From a bacterium (GTDB taxonomy: Bacteria; ARS69): DNA of 64,000 bases. Every line of letters starts with the position of its first letter. Position 1 is the first letter of the stretch. The position numbers and the translations under genes were made by a program. Of the stretch, positions 1 through 9,353 are shown in pieces. The notes under the pieces are model-generated. The model was not told where the DNA came from and did no database searches. It saw only the letters and a list, made by a program, of their open reading frames with translations. The stretch lies in NCBI GenBank assembly GCA_025774805.1, contig JALGZR010000052.1, positions 19,985 to 83,984 of the forward strand. The letters are read 5' to 3'.

Positions 1-1439
1 AACCGTGTCCGGAAGGCGCCGCCGCGTCCGTTGATCGTCCCCAAGTCCCCGTTGTCATCGTATCCGGCCTGGTTTCCGATGAACTGGCAATACTCGAACC
101 GGCCCGTCTCGCCGAGGTTGTCCGCGAACGCGCCCCCCTTGTAGGCCGCGCCCCCGGAACCGAAGGACGTGTTGTTCCGGAACGTACAACGGGAGATGAG
201 ACCGGTCGCGTACCTTCCCAGATAGAACCCAGCTCCCTGCCCGTTGTAGTTCTCCTCGAAGAGGGATCCGGTGCAGGTGACCGCCACCATCCGGCCGACG
301 TCCCGCCCCTTCACCAATACGCCGCCGCCGTCGGCGGCAGTGGCTCCCAAGGTGAGGTTTCCCTTGTTGCCGATGAACCTCGAATCGGAGATGTCGAGCT
401 GGATCGCCTCGGTATGCGATGCCGAGGTGCGGGACATGAACAGCCCGGCGCCGGCCGTCCAGGGATCCTGCCCGCTGAACGCGCTTCGATTCCCGATGAG
501 GTCGCAATCGTGCAATGTCGTGCTGCCGTCCTCGACGGAGATGCCTCCGCCGGCCCCCACCGCGCGATTGCTGTCAACGTGGCAATGGGCCAGGTCCAGG
601 GAGCTCGCGGTCCTCAACGAGAAAACGGAGATCGCTCCCCCTCGCCCGATCTGGGGCGGATTGTTCTGGCTCTCGTTGTTCGTGAACTCGCAGTCCTCCG
701 CGACGAAGTGGTAGTCGTCCTGGAGAAAGACGGCTCCCCCGGGGCCCGCGGTCGTGTTGTCGCGGAGCACGGATCGCCTCAGGACGATCTGCATTCCCTG
801 CCCGTCGCCCCGGGCATGGATGCAGCTTCCTCCGTAGGGGTACGAGGATCCCTGGTGCCCGGTGAACGCGCAGTCCTCGATCAGAACGCTCTGAAGAGTC
901 TGAGTCGGATTCTCGGGGTAGAGAACGGGCGCCGAACTGGCCGGCGTGGAGCCGACGAACGAGACGCCCTGGATCGAGGCGGAGGTCAAGGTGGAGTCGA
1001 AGCGAAACGCGGCAGTCGTCTCCATCAGCACTCGGCACGTCGCGTAGTCGCCGTCGAAGTTCTTGTTGGCCAGATGGGTGATCAGATCGAGCGGTCGATC
1101 GACGACGTGGTCCTCCGGATAGAGGACGATGGTGTCGGCGGGGGTCGCCTGCTGCAGGGCGAGGTGGATCGAAGGGTAGCAGTTCCACAGAGCCCACGTG
1201 TCGGGGAGGCTCGGCATGACCGAGCGAGACCCGCCGGTGCGAACGTGGTACCGATCGGCCCGAGCCTCGTTCGGAGCGAGCCCGATTCCGAGGGCGAGGA
1301 GAATGAAGCCGGCTCCGGCGAGGAGAGCCGCTCGGGCCCTCGGGCGGAGTCGGGGACGCTCGTATCCGGGCTCCCGCCGGGGGCGGACGCGAAAAACCAT
1401 CCGGCAAACATCTCCGGGTCGGGGAATGTCGCGAGGCAT
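1..1439 (-). CDS. secreted parallel beta-helix repeat protein (partial)
   Basis: The frame is open from an ATG at 1439 to the window edge (at least 479 residues, no stop seen), so the C-terminus is missing. The ATG has an AAGGA ribosome-binding site five bases upstream; an in-frame ATG at 1400 is the alternative. An Arg-rich start leads into a hydrophobic signal segment (about residues 36-58). The rest contains repeated short turns of the kind DCxFTxN, NNTS, GGAV, GGGISVEDG and SRFIGNKG, the pattern of right-handed parallel beta-helix (pectate-lyase-like) proteins. No catalytic residues were recognised, so an extracellular adhesive or structural role is as likely as polysaccharide cleavage. 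It has its own promoter-like sequence at 1525-1554. Longer open frames on both strands here are shadows. Confidence 0.75.
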   Translation of the reverse strand, partial: MPRDIPRPGDVCRMVFRVRPRREPGYERPRLRPRARAALLAGAGFILLALGIGLAPNEARADRYHVRTGGSRSVMPSLPDTWALWNCYPSIHLALQQATPADTIVLYPEDHVVDRPLDLITHLANKNFDGDYATCRVLMETTAAFRFDSTLTSASIQGVSFVGSTPASSAPVLYPENPTQTLQSVLIEDCAFTGHQGSSYPYGGSCIHARGDGQGMQIVLRRSVLRDNTTAGPGGAVFLQDDYHFVAEDCEFTNNESQNNPPQIGRGGAISVFSLRTASSLDLAHCHVDSNRAVGAGGGISVEDGSTTLHDCDLIGNRSAFSGQDPWTAGAGLFMSRTSASHTEAIQLDISDSRFIGNKGNLTLGATAADGGGVLVKGRDVGRMVAVTCTGSLFEENYNGQGAGFYLGRYATGLISRCTFRNNTSFGSGGAAYKGGAFADNLGETGRFEYCQFIGNQAGYDDNGDLGTINGRGGAFRTR

Positions 1440-1741
1440 GTCCGTCCTTGCGAACGGTTCAAGGGGCGAGAAATCGCGTAGTCGGGGGGAGCGCCGGGTG
1501 CCATCCGGGGCAGCCACTCCAACATTTTTACCGCATTTCGGCGGGAGATTTCAAGTGGGTCCCGGGCCGACCGTCAGGCATGACCACGCATCCGCGACCA
1601 TTGTGCAGGCAGGACAACCAATGGCGAGATCCGCGACGGGACCGGATCATCCCGCCCTGCCGCGAGACGGTCGCCGGCCCGCCGCTCCGGGCGCGCCGTC
1701 GGCCCACCGCCGCCCCCCCCGGCGGACGGGGGTGGTTTGGT
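1440..1741. other. intergenic region upstream of the beta-helix gene
   Basis: This 302-bp gap separates the usher-like gene from the beta-helix gene, both on the minus strand. It holds a minus-strand promoter-like sequence (1525-1554). The remainder is G+C-rich, and I see no RNA gene or stem followed by a T-run. Confidence 0.6.
1525..1554 (-). promoter_or_regulatory. sigma70-like promoter of the beta-helix gene
   Basis: Read on the minus strand, TTGAAA (1554-1549) is followed after 18 bases by TAAAAA (1530-1525), an A/T-rich pair in G+C-rich surroundings. The predicted transcript starts near 1518 and gives a leader of about 80 bases. This suggests the beta-helix gene is transcribed separately from the pilus-like operon upstream. 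The call is inferred from the sequence alone. Confidence 0.45.
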
Positions 1742-4651
1742 TTACCGGCGACTCACCGTCCGCAGTCCGATCTCGATCCCATTCCGGATCTCGGGACCGC
1801 GATCGAGCTCGACGCGAAAGGGCCTGGGAAGGACCCAGTCCGGTCTTCTCCCCGAATCGAGCAGGGTGATCTCGACCCGGCCGGGCGGCAGTCCCTTCAA
1901 GACGAACCGTCCCTGGAGATCCACGACCGCCAGCCTCGAGCCGGCCCGCAGAGCCGCGCCACCCGCCGGCGGCTCGTCCCGGTCCCAGCGACCGTTGCCG
2001 TTTCGGTCCACGTAGACGTGGCCGCGCACCGAGCGCAGCGCACGGAGAGGCAGCTCCCACCGCACCGTCTCGCCGGCCGTCGCCGTGACGGTGAGATCCT
2101 CCCAGCGCCCCAGGGGGGAGTAGTCCGTCGGCAGCGAGCTCCGCCGCCAGTCACAGGTCACCGTTCGCCCCAGAGGCAGCATCTGGCGGGTCGCTCCCGC
2201 CGTGGTCGTGCGGACCTGCACGTCGACCCCCGTGAGGTACAGACGAAGGTCCGACACCAGGGGCTCCCCTTCGTCCAGCTGTCCGTTCTCGTCCAGATCG
2301 CTGAATGCGAGCAGCTCGAGCGTGGCGGGGGCCGGGCCGAGGCCGAAGTCCGCCCCGGGACGGTCGACCGCGGCCAGGGCCACCCTTCGAACGACCGGTG
2401 TCGTCGCGACGAGCTTCGTCACTTCCGGATCGGGGACGACCCGCACGTGAACACGATCGGCGCGAACTCCGCCGAAACGATAGAACCCGTCCGAGCCGGT
2501 GACCGCCTCGCGACCGTCGTCCAACCGGACCTTCACTCCGGGCACCCCGAACTCCAGCGGGTCTCTCCGTCCGTTCGCGTTCCGATCGTGGAAAACCAAC
2601 CCTCGCACGGTCCTCCGGGGGTAACGGCGACCCCGTTCCACCGCCGGCCGCCCCGCCCCGAATCCATGGGTGAGACCGATCTGAATCGCCCCGTTCTCCA
2701 GGTCCATGTCCGGATCCTGATCCCAGGCGGCCACCATGTCCGCCCGGAAGCCGTGCCAGGGCCGCGTGCCGAGTTCGACCCGCGCGGTGTAGCGCCGTCC
2801 CGAGTTGAACTTCCGGTCGAGGAGGCTCAGGTATTCCCACTCCTGGTAGCCGAGCGTGAATCTCCCGTCCCCCATCGGACCGAAGCGAGGTGCGCGACCG
2901 ACGACCTGGGTGCGCCAGACGAAGTCACTCGGTTCGTCCGTCACGTCGTCCCCGAAGAAGCGACGCTCCAACCGGGCCTCGACGCTCAGCCACTCCGAGA
3001 AACCCAGCTCCGGCTCGAGATACACGGACCGTCGCGTGAAGTCGTCCCTGTCGCCGTCCGTGATCCGCTCGTTCGTGTTCTCTCCGCCGATCCTGAGTCC
3101 GACCCACGCGCCGTGCCGCTCGAGCCCCCCGTTGCTCCGGAAACCGACCTCTCCGCCTCCGCGCCACCTCCGCCAGTGATCCTCGCGGATGTCGTTGTCG
3201 CCACGCTTCAGCCATCCCCTCAGCAGGACAGCCTCCGTCAGTTCGTAGTCCGCTCCCAGGGAGTGGTATCGATTGTCCAGCCACGCGTCGATCGCGGAGG
3301 GGGTGACCGCGGCGGAGAGCGCGGCCGGCCCCACTCGCAACGGTCCCGACCCCGGTGGAGGCGTGACGGTGAGCTCTGACTCGGGAGGAGGAATCACGGT
3401 AAAGGTGCTCGTCTCCGTCTGCTCCCACCGTCGCCACGAGGTGGTTGCGTTCAGGCGCAGACGGTCTCCGACGTCCCGGCGGGCGCCCAGGCGGAGGTAG
3501 CGCGATCCCGGGAGCCCCCGACCTCCGCGGAGGGTCCTGAAGGGACCGTTGAAGAAGTTCGCACTCGCGGACAGAGCCGTGCCCCGCCGGGCCCACCGGA
3601 TCCCCCCATCGCCGGCCAGGTGGTCTCCGTCGACCGCCAGGAGCCCCTCCCAGTCGACGTGGGCCTCGCGTCCCCTCGTCCCGATCGACCCGACTCCCCG
3701 CGTCTCGTCTCCCGGACCCCACCGGGTGCCGAGCTCCGCGTGGGCGAACACGTCCGAGGAAGGACGCCACTGCAGGCGGGCCCCGCCGAGTCGATCCCGC
3801 GTCGGGGCGTAGAGACGGGTGCGACTTCCCGGGACCACGACGTCGGGGACGTCCTCCCCGTAACAGACTTCGAGGAGAAGACGCTGTCGCCCGCCGACGA
3901 GACGCGGGGTGCCGAGCTCCAGCCGTCCCCCCTCGAAGCGGTCCCGGAAGAACGTGAATCGACTCCAGGCGACGTCGACCATGCCGAGATGGAGTCGTGG
4001 TTGGTGGAAGGGACCGAGCTGGGGACGTTCGAGGAGCACGTCGTACTGCAGCACGTCGACCTCCCCTTCGCGCTCCTCCAGCGTGAGTCGGCCCTGCCCG
4101 TGGAGGTCGCCCCGGTTCAGGCGCGCCTCGCCCGTGTGGGTCCGGACGCTGCTGCTCGTGCTTCTCGGGCCCTCGGTTCGGTAGCCGTAGTAGCGGGTGC
4201 CGTACGTGATCGAGAGGGGTCGACCGTTCCTCACCCGCGGGTCCTGCGAGGGGTCGAGGATCGGCCGGTGACCGAGCACCATGGCCCGAAGAACAATGGG
4301 GCGGCCCTCGCTCCACACCCGGATGGTCGCCATGCCGTACTTCAGGCCCCGGAGAACGATGCGCCCGGGGTCGGGCGCGTTCACCGCGACCAGCTCCGGA
4401 TCGAGATTGAGCAACCGATCGACGGGCTCGACGCTCACCTCCAAGCTGTCGCCGATGTACAGCTCGAACTGCCGCACGTCGGATTCGGTGGTCTGAGCCC
4501 GCAGGGGAATCGCCCCCAGCGCACCTGCGAGCAAGAGGGCGAACACGACTCGGGCCGGCGCTCCGATCGATGGGGCGGGCCGGCATCTCTCACCCGGCGC
4601 AGCGAGCCGCTGCCGGAGCCGAGGCTGTTGAGAGACGCAGGCCGGGTTCAA
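1742..4651 (-). CDS. usher-like outer-membrane protein with SdrD-like repeats
   Basis: The product is 969 residues. The TTG start is chosen because AGAGGAA lies about five bases upstream. A signal segment (about 35-53) is followed by a domain like the N domain of secretins and pilus assembly proteins (about 58-130; 'DRLLNLDPELVAVNAPDPG ... IVLRGLKYGMATIRVW'). Next is a long stretch of alternating aromatic, Arg and Gly residues typical of an outer-membrane barrel (about 135-670). Then come three SdrD-B/Ca-binding-like repeats with DxNxNGxxDxxE cores (DRNANGRRDPLE, DLDENGQLDEGE, DRNGNGRWDRDE). It is the last gene of a set with a pilin-like and a chaperone-like gene, 42 bp below the latter. The fimbrial usher role is inferred from this context and architecture. 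The domain order differs from classical ushers such as FimD or CfaC. Confidence 0.7.
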   Translation of the reverse strand: MNPACVSQQPRLRQRLAAPGERCRPAPSIGAPARVVFALLLAGALGAIPLRAQTTESDVRQFELYIGDSLEVSVEPVDRLLNLDPELVAVNAPDPGRIVLRGLKYGMATIRVWSEGRPIVLRAMVLGHRPILDPSQDPRVRNGRPLSITYGTRYYGYRTEGPRSTSSSVRTHTGEARLNRGDLHGQGRLTLEEREGEVDVLQYDVLLERPQLGPFHQPRLHLGMVDVAWSRFTFFRDRFEGGRLELGTPRLVGGRQRLLLEVCYGEDVPDVVVPGSRTRLYAPTRDRLGGARLQWRPSSDVFAHAELGTRWGPGDETRGVGSIGTRGREAHVDWEGLLAVDGDHLAGDGGIRWARRGTALSASANFFNGPFRTLRGGRGLPGSRYLRLGARRDVGDRLRLNATTSWRRWEQTETSTFTVIPPPESELTVTPPPGSGPLRVGPAALSAAVTPSAIDAWLDNRYHSLGADYELTEAVLLRGWLKRGDNDIREDHWRRWRGGGEVGFRSNGGLERHGAWVGLRIGGENTNERITDGDRDDFTRRSVYLEPELGFSEWLSVEARLERRFFGDDVTDEPSDFVWRTQVVGRAPRFGPMGDGRFTLGYQEWEYLSLLDRKFNSGRRYTARVELGTRPWHGFRADMVAAWDQDPDMDLENGAIQIGLTHGFGAGRPAVERGRRYPRRTVRGLVFHDRNANGRRDPLEFGVPGVKVRLDDGREAVTGSDGFYRFGGVRADRVHVRVVPDPEVTKLVATTPVVRRVALAAVDRPGADFGLGPAPATLELLAFSDLDENGQLDEGEPLVSDLRLYLTGVDVQVRTTTAGATRQMLPLGRTVTCDWRRSSLPTDYSPLGRWEDLTVTATAGETVRWELPLRALRSVRGHVYVDRNGNGRWDRDEPPAGGAALRAGSRLAVVDLQGRFVLKGLPPGRVEITLLDSGRRPDWVLPRPFRVELDRGPEIRNGIEIGLRTVSRR

Positions 4652-4693
4652 AATCGTTCCTCTACCGCTCCGGAGTCGAGGGCCTCGGTGCGA

Positions 4694-5812
4694 TTACCGG
4701 ATTCGGAAATGTCTCGAGCTCGCGAGGCTGTGGTCTTCGTTCTCGAGAAGCACCGTGAGCTCGTACTCGCCCGGAGGCAGGGAGCCGAGGGGCACCGTCT
4801 GCCCGGATGCCTCCCCGGGCAGGATGGTGAGGTCAGGGGCATCGGGAGATTCGACGGTCGCTCCCCGCGTGTCATTCACCCGGATCGTGCTCCTGAGGAC
4901 GGCCGTGATGTTGCCCCGGTTCTCGACGCGCACGATGGCGTCCGCGCGACCCTCACGCTGCACGACCTCCGCGAGCATCAGCTCGAGGTGATCCACGACC
5001 TCGAACTCCATCTCCGGGGTGAGGAACCGTCCTCCTCCGAGCTCGATCGTTCCGATGATCTGATACTTGCCGGGAGCGAGCGGACCGTCCCACTGCTCGG
5101 CGACCCGAATGTCTCCGCCCGGCTGGGCGAAGTACGTCTTCATCTCCACCTTGCCCATCAGCAGGCCGCTCGCATCCACGATCGCAAAGGACCCTCCCGG
5201 CCTCAGCCCCGCGTTGCCGCGATTGCGAATGACCGCATGAATCTCCAGACCCCGCGTGTCGTCCGGCCGCGAGACCCTAAGACCCTCCAGCTCCGCGTGC
5301 CAGTTCGTATTGCCCTCGGTGTCCACGGTGATCAGGTGCCCGAGATTGACCCGCGTGGCGACGGTGAGGGCGCTCGGAGAGGCCTGGGCCACCGGATCGA
5401 TGTCGACGATGAAGGCACTGAAGTAGCTACCGATGGCGTTTTCGGGAAGCGTGACCGAGAGGGAGATCTCCTGCAGACCGCCCGCCGGTATCTCGAACTC
5501 GGTCGGCCAGACCTGAAGCCACTCGGTGCAGGATCGCTTCTGCGTGTTCGACGGGTGATAGCGCAGTCTCTCGGCCAGGCCGTCCTCGATCGTCCAGTCG
5601 TGAAGCCGGAGACGACAGGAGATCGGCCCGTCCGTCATGTTGCCGATCGTGACCGTCTGACCGCCATGGCTGCCCGGAGCCACGGTCATCCGGGTCGACG
5701 ACGGGGTCATGCTCACCTTGGCGGCGGTCGTCGACGACGACGCGACCGTCATCGCGATCGCGAGAGACGCGACAATCAGATACCACCCAGGTACCCGTAG
5801 GGATCGATCCAC
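4694..5812 (-). CDS. PapD-like / DUF916-like periplasmic chaperone
   Basis: The product is 372 residues. The GTG start lies two bases after the stop of the pilin-like gene and gives a clean signal peptide (MDRSLRVPGWYLIVASLAIA...). Three immunoglobulin-like segments follow. The first ('MTPSSTRMTVAPGSHGGQTV', then 'GNMTDGPISCRLRL') resembles the N-terminal strand and 'SxxNxxxxP' region of fimbrial chaperones and the DUF916 domain that accompanies WxL surface proteins. The last two ('VIRNRGNAGLRPGGSFAIVD', 'VRVENRGNITAVLRSTIRVN') are CARDB/DUF3324-like. The likely job is folding or escorting the small secreted subunit encoded just upstream to the barrel protein encoded just downstream. The fold is fairly clear; the partners are inferred from gene order. 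Confidence 0.65.
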   Translation of the reverse strand: MDRSLRVPGWYLIVASLAIAMTVASSSTTAAKVSMTPSSTRMTVAPGSHGGQTVTIGNMTDGPISCRLRLHDWTIEDGLAERLRYHPSNTQKRSCTEWLQVWPTEFEIPAGGLQEISLSVTLPENAIGSYFSAFIVDIDPVAQASPSALTVATRVNLGHLITVDTEGNTNWHAELEGLRVSRPDDTRGLEIHAVIRNRGNAGLRPGGSFAIVDASGLLMGKVEMKTYFAQPGGDIRVAEQWDGPLAPGKYQIIGTIELGGGRFLTPEMEFEVVDHLELMLAEVVQREGRADAIVRVENRGNITAVLRSTIRVNDTRGATVESPDAPDLTILPGEASGQTVPLGSLPPGEYELTVLLENEDHSLASSRHFRIR

Positions 5813-5814
5813 GG

Positions 5815-6300
5815 CTAGATCGCAGTCACCGTCAGGTTGATCTGGAACTGATAGCTCGTCGTGTTCTGCTGCGCTCCCACGTTGAACTGGGCCGCGACGT
5901 TCTTGTTGAAGTTCTCGGATACCCCTCCGATGGGGGCGGTGAACTGGCGAGACGTGCCGAAGTCGGCCTGCAGCCAGGTCAGGGTCTCCGAGCCGTCGTT
6001 GAGGGTGACGCTCAGATCCCAGTCGGGTCCGCCGGGCTTCGTCACAATGGACGAGAGGTTGAACGTCTGGGCGGGGCCCAGGTTGTGGGTCACGGTCAGA
6101 ATCAGGTTGTCCGTGGGCGAACTGCCGGGAGTCGTCGTGCCGAAGTTCTGCGAGGTGGTGCCGCTCGTCTGCCACTGAACCGTGACCCCGATGTCCGTGG
6201 ATACCGCCAAGGTCGCGAAAGCATCGGCTTGCGCCCCACACACCCCCGTCCACAACCCGACCAGACCGATCGCGAGAATGGGCAGGAGAGTCGCTCTCAT
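5815..6300 (-). CDS. small secreted pilin-like subunit
   Basis: The product is 161 residues. The ATG at 6300 has GAGGAGG four bases upstream. A signal peptide (about 1-24, ending CGAQA) precedes an all-beta mature domain rich in Thr, Ser, Asn and Gln with no Cys. It ends in alternating hydrophobic strands (FQINLTVTAI), as fimbrial subunits do for donor-strand exchange. Size and composition resemble CfaB-type major pilins and WxL-like domains, but I recognise no specific family. It is first in the chaperone/usher-like operon, the place expected for the major subunit. Confidence 0.6.
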   Translation of the reverse strand: MRATLLPILAIGLVGLWTGVCGAQADAFATLAVSTDIGVTVQWQTSGTTSQNFGTTTPGSSPTDNLILTVTHNLGPAQTFNLSSIVTKPGGPDWDLSVTLNDGSETLTWLQADFGTSRQFTAPIGGVSENFNKNVAAQFNVGAQQNTTSYQFQINLTVTAI

Positions 6301-6698
6301 GGTGCCTCCTCGTTGAATCCGTCGTTTCCGGCTCCTGCCGGTCCGCCCCACGAACACCTGGCATGGGCCCGACGGAGAACGGGCGAGGCCCCTCCATCCA
6401 GTCGACGAGGGAACGGTCCAGCAGGTCCCTGATAACATTGTGACACGAGTCGACCCGCGCTCACAACCGGGGAGGACCCGGGCTCCCCGGTCCCATCGCG
6501 GGTCGGACGGCCGCCCCGGGGGAGAGCGGTGCGCGTATTGGGCTATGTGCGCCTTTATTATCCGATTTTGACATGAATTGAGGCCTCCGCCGCGCTCGCC
6601 GTCCATCCGGAGGATCGGGAGCGCAAGCGACGCCTGCCCTCGTGGGGGGTGCTCGGTCGGGGATGATCCCAGACGCCCGTCCGCCGTCGGGACGTCGG
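6301..6698. other. intergenic region upstream of the pilus-like operon
   Basis: About 400 bp lie between the LVIVD gene end and the pilin-like gene, both on the minus strand. It includes the pilin ribosome-binding site, an extended -10 candidate at 6429-6437, and an unusually A/T-rich island at about 6546-6576. No convincing gene is seen, and the open frames here are shadows. Confidence 0.5.
6429..6437 (-). promoter_or_regulatory. extended -10 promoter candidate for the pilus-like operon
   Basis: Read on the minus strand the sequence is TGTTATCAG, a TG-n-TATCAG extended -10 box, about 130 bp before the pilin-like start. No good -35 box is seen. The second A/T-rich patch at 6546-6576 could be an alternative promoter or an operator. 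Confidence 0.3.
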
Positions 6699-7727
6699 CT
6701 ACCGCACGAGCATCAGTTTTCGCACGGCCCGGAACTCACCCGACTCCATGGTCAGGTAATACACGCCCGGAGATACGAACGTTCGCTCCTCTCGTGAGCC
6801 CGACCAGAGCGTTCGGTGCCGGCCGGTCGGCAGGACCCCGTCGATCAGCGTGCTCACGAGCCGTCCCCGCACGTCGTAGATCCGGAGCCGGGTGTGTCGA
6901 GGCTCCCCGAGGCGGAACGAGATCGAGGTCGATCGCCGGAACGGGTTCGGCGCTCCCTCCTCCAGCGCGAACGACATCGGCTCGTCCGGTCCCGAGGCCG
7001 GGACCCCGGCCTCGAGCCAGTCGATCTGGAGCCAGGAAACCGAGGGGCCTCCGGGCGCGGTCCACGAGAGCGTCGCGCGCCACCGCAGATCGTGCCCGGG
7101 ATGGGTGAAAACGTTCCAGTTCCCGTCGGGAAGCACCGCCTGCCAGTGGGCTCCCCCGTCGGCGCTCAGCCCCCAGGCGATGCTCTCGGTCGAGGATGCC
7201 GTCAGACGGGCTTCGAGGACGACCGCGCTCGAGCCGTCGACGTCGAGCGACTGGGCGACGTTCGCGCTCCCGTCGACCTCCCGCTGCCGCACCTGGACCG
7301 CTTGGAGAAGCACCGAGGAGTCCGCCAGGTAGGCGACGTCTCCGGACACCGCCACCCCGCGGACCGAGCTGGAGGTGTCGTAGTACCCCAGGAGCGAGGG
7401 CTCCGCCGGGTTCGAGATGTCGACGATCCGAATCCCCGAGAGCCGGTCGGCGACGTAGGCGACGTCTCCCTGCACGACGACGTCGTCGGCCTCGCCCGGC
7501 GTGTCGTAGGTGCCGAGCAGGCCCGGTGCGGAGGGGCTCGAGACGTCGATGAGGTGGAGCCCGGAGAGTCCGTCCGCGACGCAGACGAGATCCCCTGCGA
7601 CCGCGACGGCGGACGCCTCCCCCGGCGTGTCGTACACGCCGAGGAAGAGGGGCGTGGTGGGATTCGAGACGTCGATCAACCGGAGTCCGGAAGGCCCGTC
7701 CGCCACGTAGGCGACGTCTCCCGCCAC
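6699..7727 (-). CDS. LVIVD-repeat secreted protein, 3' part of a frameshifted gene
   Basis: This is the downstream part of one gene broken near 7835-7850. The frame itself continues upstream to the break; 7727 is only the first Met. It holds the last four of 13 LVIVD repeats ('DTPGEASAVAVAGDLVCVAD'), then a beta domain, then a C-terminal sorting/FlgD-like domain: 'GAPNPFRRSTSISFRLGEPR', 'LRIYDVRGRLVSTLIDGVLP', 'FVSPGVYYLTMESGEFRAVR', ending KLMLVR. Such tails mark exported surface proteins in FCB bacteria. Without the upstream part it lacks a signal peptide and would not be exported. Confidence 0.75.
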   Translation of the reverse strand: MAGDVAYVADGPSGLRLIDVSNPTTPLFLGVYDTPGEASAVAVAGDLVCVADGLSGLHLIDVSSPSAPGLLGTYDTPGEADDVVVQGDVAYVADRLSGIRIVDISNPAEPSLLGYYDTSSSVRGVAVSGDVAYLADSSVLLQAVQVRQREVDGSANVAQSLDVDGSSAVVLEARLTASSTESIAWGLSADGGAHWQAVLPDGNWNVFTHPGHDLRWRATLSWTAPGGPSVSWLQIDWLEAGVPASGPDEPMSFALEEGAPNPFRRSTSISFRLGEPRHTRLRIYDVRGRLVSTLIDGVLPTGRHRTLWSGSREERTFVSPGVYYLTMESGEFRAVRKLMLVR

Positions 7728-8935
7728 CGCGACGCGCTCGGCGTAGCCGGGCGTGTCGTGGTCGCCGAGCAGCGCGGGGAAAGCGGGCTCGGAGACATCG
7801 ATCGCGAGCAGCCCCGAGCCGGCCGCCGCGACCCAGGCGACGAGGCGACGTCCCCGCAGACCGCGACCCCGGTGGCGAAGTTCGGGGTGTCATGGATCCC
7901 GAGGGGGGTCAGGTTCCCCGGAACGGAGATGTCGATCGCCTGCAGACCGACGGTCCCGTACGCGACGTACGCCACGTCCCCCGACACCGCGACGCGGATC
8001 GAGTTGCCGATCGTGTCGTACCGGTGGAGATAGACGGGCGGCACGGGAGAGGAGATCTCGAGCAATCGAATTCCGGAGAGCCGATCCGCGACGAGAGCGA
8101 CGCCCCCGGCCACCGCGATCCCGTGGGCGTGGCCGGGCGTGTCGTGGCTGCCGAGCGAGACCGGTTGGGAGGGATCGGAGACGTCGACGACCTGAACTCC
8201 GAACGCGTCGTCGGCGACGTACGCGGCGTCACCGCTCACCGCGACGGCTCGCGCCAGACCGGGGGTGTCGAGGCTCCCGAGGGAGGTGGGCGCGGCGGGA
8301 TTCGTGATGTCGATCGCGCGAAGGCCGGACGCGCCGTCCGCCACGTAGGCGACGTCCCCGGCGAGGGCAAGGCCGCGGGCCTGACCCGGCGTGTCGTAGC
8401 GACCAAGAGGAGAGGGAGCCGACGGGTTCGAGACATCGATGAGACAGAGTCCGGAGTCTCCGTCGGCGACGCAGGCGAGATCTCCGGCCACGGCGACGGC
8501 GAGCGCGGATCCGGGAGTGTCGGAAAGACCGAGGAGCGTCGGAGCCCCCGGGTTCGAGATGTCGAGGAGGCAGAGCCCGGAGTCCCCGACGGCGACGCAC
8601 GCGACGTCTCCGGCCACGGCGACCCCGTTCGCGGGGGCGGGGGTGTCGTGGCTCCCGAGAGCGGAGGGAGCGGCGGGGTTCGAGAGGTCGACGGCGCACA
8701 GTCCGGAGTCCCCGTCGGCGACCCACGCGATGTCCCCGGCCAGAGCGACACCGAGTGCCGACCCCGGGGTGTCGAGGTGCCCGAGCGCGGAGGGGGCCGT
8801 GGGGTCGGAGACGTCGACGACGCGCAGACCGGAGTCTCCGTCGGCGACGCAAGCGACGTCTCCGGCGACGACGACCTCGAGCGCGGATCCGGGAGTGTCG
8901 AGGCTGCCGATTCCGATCGGCTCGAAGGGGGGGAG
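7310..8935 (-). repeat. tandem ~126-bp repeats encoding 13 LVIVD units
   Basis: Thirteen imperfect units of about 126 bp (42 codons) follow each other. Each contains a variant of GACACxCCxGG, encoding DTPG, and GGxGACGTCGCxxxCGTxGC, encoding GDVAxVA. The high similarity makes the array prone to slippage and gene conversion, relevant to the duplication inside it. Confidence 0.8.
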
Positions 8936-9112
8936 CCGGAGCTCCTCGACGACCGTGTTCCAGTCGGCCGTCGTGTTCGCCGCGTCCCGGTAGGTCGTCG
9001 TGCTGAAGTCCTCGACGTACGTGTTCTCGGCGGCCACGGACGGGACCACCCCGGGCGCGGAAAGAAGGAGAAAGAGAAGCGGTGCGACGAGACGTCGAGG
9101 CGGACGATGCAT
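7676..9112 (-). CDS. LVIVD-repeat secreted protein, 5' part of a frameshifted gene
   Basis: The start is the ATG at 9112 with GAGGAGG seven bases upstream; it gives a signal peptide (MHRPPRRLVAPLLFLLL...). Nine beta-propeller-like LVIVD repeats of about 42 residues follow (DTPGSALxVAVAGDVACVADGDSGLxxVDVSNPxAPxxLG). The reading frame is lost at the 8-bp tandem duplication 7835-7850, after which the translation turns into Arg/Ser-rich nonsense. Removing 8 bp joins this part to the 6699-7727 part as one frame of 801 residues with 13 repeats and a C-terminal sorting domain. Function is unknown; a surface propeller for binding is likely. Confidence 0.75.
   Translation of the reverse strand: MHRPPRRLVAPLLFLLLSAPGVVPSVAAENTYVEDFSTTTYRDAANTTADWNTVVEELRLPPFEPIGIGSLDTPGSALEVVVAGDVACVADGDSGLRVVDVSDPTAPSALGHLDTPGSALGVALAGDIAWVADGDSGLCAVDLSNPAAPSALGSHDTPAPANGVAVAGDVACVAVGDSGLCLLDISNPGAPTLLGLSDTPGSALAVAVAGDLACVADGDSGLCLIDVSNPSAPSPLGRYDTPGQARGLALAGDVAYVADGASGLRAIDITNPAAPTSLGSLDTPGLARAVAVSGDAAYVADDAFGVQVVDVSDPSQPVSLGSHDTPGHAHGIAVAGGVALVADRLSGIRLLEISSPVPPVYLHRYDTIGNSIRVAVSGDVAYVAYGTVGLQAIDISVPGNLTPLGIHDTPNFATGVAVCGDVASSPGSRRPARGCSRSMSPSPLSPRCSATTTRPATPSASRWRETSPTWRTGLPDSG
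7835..7850. repeat. 8-bp tandem duplication that breaks the LVIVD gene
   Basis: AGGCGACG occurs twice in a row (7835-7842 and 7843-7850). On the coding strand GAC-GTC-GCC should lead into TGG-GTC-GCG (GDVAWVA), but eight extra bases shift the frame. Subtracting them makes 6699-9112 an exact multiple of three (802 codons). Confidence 0.85.
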
Positions 9113-9353
9113 GTGCGCGCCTCCTCGTGCCCGGAGTCTCGGCGAGCCCCGGTCGGCGAGGAGTCCCCTCCCGAAGACGGCGAACGGGTCGTTCCCGGAA
9201 GCGGCGGAGGCGCCCGTCCTTCGATGCGGTTCCGACTTCCTCCATCCTACGACAGGAGCGATCCGGAGTTCGAGACCGTCGCCGGGCGCCATCCTCCCGG
9301 ACGCCTGAGCGACTCGCTTGAACTCCTTGGGGGCGCGGGAGTTGCGAGAGTTC

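Follow-up and report, generated by a model that had tools for sequence, protein, structure and literature searches.

A three-gene locus that probably represents a divergent chaperone-usher branch whose pore lacks a plug

Three tightly packed minus-strand genes in the 64,000-nucleotide stretch of bacterial DNA analysed here (the window) raise the question of whether they encode a new surface-fibre assembly system that merely mirrors chaperone-usher pili, as the original prediction had it, or a distant branch of the chaperone-usher pathway itself. A check of the open reading frames confirmed the three closely spaced genes, with gaps of 2 bp and 42 bp, in the order subunit, chaperone, usher-like protein (Table 1), and the 161-residue secreted beta subunit that had been proposed was found as an open reading frame with a signal peptide and a strong ribosome-binding site ahead of it. 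The order that a chaperone-usher pathway calls for, subunit-chaperone-usher on one strand, was present both in the window and in relatives, and the order and spacing of the triad match those of fimA-fimC-fimD. The signal peptide of the 969-aa protein would begin only near residue 35, so that its TTG start is uncertain and a later start is possible. A search for a sigma-70-like promoter found none. The usher-like gene is followed on its own strand by a gene cut by the window edge (3-1517, minus strand); its product, a secreted right-handed beta-helix protein in which Pfam finds Chlamydia-PMP-type repeats, is a possible surface cargo. Upstream of the triad, at 6699-9292 on the minus strand, is an LVIVD-repeat protein whose C-terminal tail resembles a sorting domain (Por_Secre_tail/FlgD_ig, Pfam); its two overlapping reading frames, 6699-7727 and 7676-9292, look like a single frameshifted gene.

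Table 1. Features of the triad, in window coordinates
Feature	Position	Strand	Details
Usher-like outer-membrane protein gene	1742..4651	-	969 aa; TTG start 42 bp beyond the chaperone gene
SdrD/CarboxypepD_reg-type C-terminal domains, residues about 679-968	1748..2617	-	Pfam; align with FimD-family CTD1/CTD2, probability 89
Predicted beta-barrel, residues about 174-664	2660..4132	-	Low-confidence AlphaFold2 model; homology to L045
Pilus-formation N domain (PF13629, T2SS-T3SS_pil_N), residues 60-119	4295..4474	-	Pfam E = 1.2e-5, over cut-off
Periplasmic chaperone gene	4694..5812	-	372 aa; GTG start 2 bp past subunit stop; signal peptide, two PapD/WxLIP-type Ig domains, third C-terminal domain (putatively Ig-like)
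Secreted beta-rich subunit gene, WxL-like/pilin-like	5815..6300	-	161 aa; ATG start, AGGAGG just upstream; signal peptide; W-D-L at residues 93-95; hydrophobic C-terminal strand
AGGAGG, Shine-Dalgarno-like, ahead of subunit start	6305..6310	-	Read from sequence

Taken alone, the window chaperone gave no Pfam match above cut-off and no PapD hit, and its DUF916/PapD nature became visible only in profile comparisons that included its relatives. A family profile of 15 chaperone relatives (A4) aligned with seven PapD-type chaperones (six from E. coli K-12, of FimC/EcpB type, and one from genome G032) at an hhalign probability of 98.1 over 215 columns. The alignment spans both Ig domains and keeps the G1 donor-strand region in register; at the family level, the two PapD-like Ig domains of a chaperone-usher chaperone are therefore present. 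Against PDB sequences, A4 matched the WxL-interacting protein EfmWxLIP1 (9i1y) at E = 1.8e-11 and the fimbrial chaperone EcpB weakly, at 0.022. The DUF916-type first Ig domain of WxLIP is thus a feature of the family profile and not of the window protein by itself. With Pfam, PF06030 was found (E up to 0.1) in 6 of 19 family members, and the Chryseobacterium chaperone matched WxLIP_PGBD at 2.7e-6 and PapD_N at 0.03. Judged by these profiles, the family is homologous both to the PapD-type chaperones of E. coli and to the Gram-positive WxL-interacting protein, and joins the two. The chaperone had been described as a three-Ig protein mixing PapD, DUF916 and CARDB-like features; the first two held, through the family profiles only, whereas no CARDB match was found for the window protein and one relative has such a match. 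According to a published prediction (PMC10599100), WxLIP inserts a hairpin strand into WxL; strand donation in chaperone-usher systems is known as donor-strand complementation (PMC4654587), and we regard the two as the same trick.

The subunits were compared in an alignment of 39 sequences that includes the window subunit (A7). None of the 39 matched a relevant Pfam family, and none matched the WxL domain, PF13731. One alignment column is occupied by tryptophan in about half of them, mostly within a W-x-hydrophobic motif (W-D-L in the window subunit), and an aromatic-T/S-hydrophobic strand closes 29 of the 39; these mid-sequence and C-terminal motifs lie at approximately the positions of the two motifs of WxL domains. 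The N-termini have, as a pattern of residues, the alternation expected of a donor strand. The subunit profile aligned with two WxL proteins of genome G258 at a probability of 73, and gave no significant alignment with the pilins of E. coli K-12 (probability 8). The only two PF13731 matches in 386 genomes lie in tandem in G258 (L192 and L193, contig C659), where the chaperone family is present as well, and the WxL protein of L192 aligned pairwise with one subunit of the system at E = 1e-4.

For the 969-aa protein, the predicted architecture was a secretin-type N domain, a barrel and three SdrD-like repeats. The N domain was found by Pfam and occupies the place of the usher N-terminal domain; four other usher-like proteins (L088, L089, L091 and L116) share it at the same position, and a chaperone gene adjoins each. 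SdrD_B matched at E = 9.1e-12, with two stretches passing the cut-off and the third repeat recognized by eye. Neither PF00577 (Usher) nor PapC_N was matched, PF13629 standing in place of the latter, and no plug-size insert was visible in the sequence. The barrel is the part that did not emerge with confidence from the window protein: its AlphaFold2 model (pLDDT 51), computed from 18 divergent rows, has about 22 weakly predicted strands in the barrel region and is too weak to stand alone, with FimD chains among its best structural matches (1.7e-8). No full-length relative of this protein was found in the window's phylum, which comprises only five genomes, or in a pattern scan of the genome contigs.

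A confident barrel was obtained from a homologue, L045, whose model (pLDDT 84.8) starts with two Ig-like domains, continues with a barrel of about 26 strands (residues 251-703) and ends in two C-terminal domains, with no plug to be seen. In this homologue the layout is that of the usher fold, an outer-membrane barrel followed by two C-terminal beta-sandwich domains. When the L045 model was compared with the PDB by Foldseek, ranks 1-9 were all FimD or PapC (7.9e-14 to 4.5e-11), and other barrels came in at about 1e-6. VIA-align placed FimD at Z 14.6 over model residues 253-903, that is, the barrel and the C-terminal domains, in a list headed not by FimD but by MtrB (Z 17.6), and from which the absence of a family does not exclude it. 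TM-scores to FimD were only 0.25-0.39. The usher-like proteins of Chryseobacterium are full-length homologues of L045 (profile probability 99.7, 829 columns).

Profile comparisons connect the large proteins to ushers by further routes. The SdrD-like repeats had been taken for a novelty in place of the usher C-terminal domains; those of the window family in fact aligned with usher CTD1/CTD2 (probability 89), at the same position, and so are no unrelated novelty. A branch comprising L042, L096 and L106 aligned with the K-12 ushers (FimD) at a probability of 87; the 218 aligned columns take in barrel sequence, the GD motif and an inserted domain that resembles the plug. This branch has its C-terminal domains in common with the window branch (probability 98.8). 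Two loci are intermediates between ushers and window-type proteins: in L118 a PapD_N chaperone (8.8e-6) adjoins an SdrD-tailed protein, and L119 has a true usher whose CarboxypepD_reg tail is weak. The relatives of the large protein in the window's own genome (A14) gave no sequence alignment with ushers, the Pfam Usher model matched none of the first 15 large partner proteins, and PF00577 is absent from 42 of the 44 genomes with the chaperone family, the two that match the model holding a true usher. The Usher and PapC_N models thus miss the window protein, while homology holds for the chaperone and for the overall architecture. Taken together, the homology of the chaperones, the SdrD/CTD alignment, the FimD alignment of the L042 branch and the FimD/PapC top structures argue for common descent with chaperone-usher pathways. 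A regular-expression test for a GD...RG motif scored 13 of 45, compared with 3.6 after shuffling; the motif had been picked after the data were seen, and the test is not used as proof.

Searching with the chaperone sequence found relatives in 18 of 193 genomes, and the A4 profile placed the family in 57 of 386 genomes (about 15%), in 50 of 328 genera and in many families. A recurring set was found in about 60 neighbourhoods that were read: at least one secreted protein, mostly of 150-330 aa, then the chaperone, then a protein mostly of 800-1,200 aa. Many of the secreted proteins end in a strand such as FTYTLTAP, TVTYTIIDQ or TLTYTVVVQ. Among chaperone loci with room for a partner, 37 of 52 are followed at +1 or +2 by a gene of 750 aa or more on their own strand, against 16 of 156 (10%) control genes of similar size from the same loci (p = 1e-16, with some loci sharing a genus or genome and thus not all independent); the other 15 have no such partner. 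In Chryseobacterium and its allies, 50 loci were found by way of the usher-like protein, and the chaperone lies directly upstream in 49 of the 49 evaluable ones, comprising 44 full triads (with 1-5 subunits), three pairs cut by a contig start and two broken usher-like frames. The functional coupling expected from the gene spacing is borne out by this linkage and by the recurrence of the triad in many genomes, and the Chryseobacterium-type loci are the reverse of homologues without the partner genes, which had been named as evidence that would count against the proposal. A second set is present in the genome from which the window comes (L029, G000 contig C12, 1176-6389), with two subunits, a chaperone and an 877-aa usher-like protein that has no pilus-N match. 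A plasmid search gave no match to the Chryseobacterium usher-like protein; copies of the chaperone on Deinococcus plasmids are annotated as hypothetical. The same genome as the window also holds a third chaperone homologue (L030, G000 contig C44, 8660-9496), with no recognisable usher-like gene directly downstream. Chaperone-family genes without a large same-strand gene downstream occur in L039, L041, L092, L101, L108, L113 and L115; several of these encode two chaperone domains per protein, perhaps another use of the domain.

Chaperone-usher systems, whether archaic/sigma (e.g. Csu) or classical (e.g. Fim), share with the triad the gene order, a PapD-type two-domain chaperone, a large outer-membrane barrel with C-terminal beta-sandwich domains, and subunits with an alternating N-terminal strand and a hydrophobic C-terminal strand. 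They differ in that the large protein here is missed by PF00577 and has SdrD-type C-terminal domains, its N-terminal domain is pilus-N (Cu_amine_oxidN1 or Ig in others), neither the window protein nor the L045 branch shows a plug, the barrel of a homologue counts about 26 strands and not 24, and in Pfam terms the chaperone is nearer to WxLIP than to PapD_N. WxL clusters with WxLIP (DUF916-DUF3324) resemble the triad in having a small secreted beta protein next to a two-Ig partner to which the chaperone family matches; unlike them, the window chaperone has no evident C-terminal transmembrane helix, PF13731 is missing from the 39 subunits, and the set includes an outer-membrane barrel and resides in diderm hosts. 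The N-terminal pilus-N domain recalls the type IVb/Flp pilus secretin CpaC/RcpA (T2SS-T3SS_pil_N), but Pfam found no secretin domain here, the triad comes without Flp pilus genes, and a monomeric-type barrel is expected.

We conclude, with a probability of roughly 0.8, that the triad belongs to the chaperone-usher superfamily, as a divergent branch without a plug that would assemble a surface fibre by donor-strand exchange. The original prediction was thus right about the kind of system, given the recurring triad, and is not supported in making it a new one that only mirrors chaperone-usher pili, since common descent is indicated. In the mechanism that we propose, the 161-aa subunit would be exported by Sec and captured in the periplasm by the 372-aa chaperone, a strand of whose first Ig domain would complete the subunit fold. 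The subunit would then be passed to the 969-aa outer-membrane barrel and polymerized through it, the chaperone strand being swapped for the N-terminal strand of the next subunit, to give a thin surface fibre. The pilus-N domain, replacing the usher NTD, may serve in docking or in contact with peptidoglycan, and the SdrD-like C-terminal domains would do the job of usher CTD1/CTD2.

The subunit and chaperone data could also be read as a diderm WxL-type surface complex that makes no fibre, in which the chaperone-like protein is a permanent partner that keeps the WxL-like subunit at the cell surface or on peptidoglycan, with the barrel as a mere anchor. The match of the chaperone family to WxLIP, the aromatic-x-hydrophobic motifs at mid-sequence and C-terminus as in WxL domains, and the alignment with the G258 WxL proteins are all consistent with such a complex, and a pilus-N domain could bind the cell wall. 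We nevertheless consider it improbable: WxL clusters have no counterpart of the large usher-like barrel with CTD-like domains, tandem near-identical subunit copies fit a polymer, and the PapD relation spans both chaperone domains.

Two other readings concern the barrel, and both seem to us very unlikely. One is that it is a porin or polymer exporter (AlgE/MtrB-like) with the small genes as accessories, as might be suggested by MtrB being the best VIA-align match and by the good scores of AlgE and OprD porins. In Foldseek, however, ushers lead the other barrels by about seven orders of magnitude; around the triads for which a gene list was read, we noticed no cytochrome or polysaccharide gene, and a PapD-like chaperone is often paired with the barrel gene. 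The other is convergence, with a PapD-like chaperone of common origin and a barrel recruited independently of ushers that arrived at a similar SdrD-domain layout. The barrel of the window protein resists sequence alignment with ushers, and strand number and N-terminal domain differ, as convergence would have it; against it, the L042 branch aligns with FimD through the plug and is tied to the window branch by its C-terminal domains, and L118 and L119 are intermediates. A more radical version of the chaperone-usher reading, which we offer tentatively and think doubtful, is that the branch forms a separate class of fibre platform, with a plug-less pore of about 26 strands, an exchangeable N-terminal domain, and gating and recruitment unlike those of ushers, and that it derives, together with WxL clusters, from a common donor-strand ancestor predating the classical chaperone-usher split.

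By the published account, chaperone-usher pili occur only in Proteobacteria, Cyanobacteria and Deinococcus-Thermus (PMC4654587). The carriers found here are often far from the bacteria known for this machinery, and include cultured Chryseobacterium. No paper joining DUF916 with chaperone-usher systems, or describing such an usher branch, was found in the open-licence literature; NCBIfam has no model for the system's parts, and Pfam and NCBIfam name neither the subunits nor the usher-like proteins. What is new is the breadth of the branch, its invisibility to Pfam and NCBIfam, the exchange of its N-terminal domain and the connection that it makes to WxL clusters. The system links these Gram-positive clusters with chaperone-usher pili, and poses the question of how an usher might work without a plug. 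Chryseobacterium is a tractable host in which to test for a new surface fibre. The loci of Chryseobacterium and its allies (L140-L189) have one to five near-identical 181-aa subunit genes each, and in some of them a further gene of about 480 aa, which has no Pfam match, lies behind the usher-like gene and is a candidate tip adhesin.
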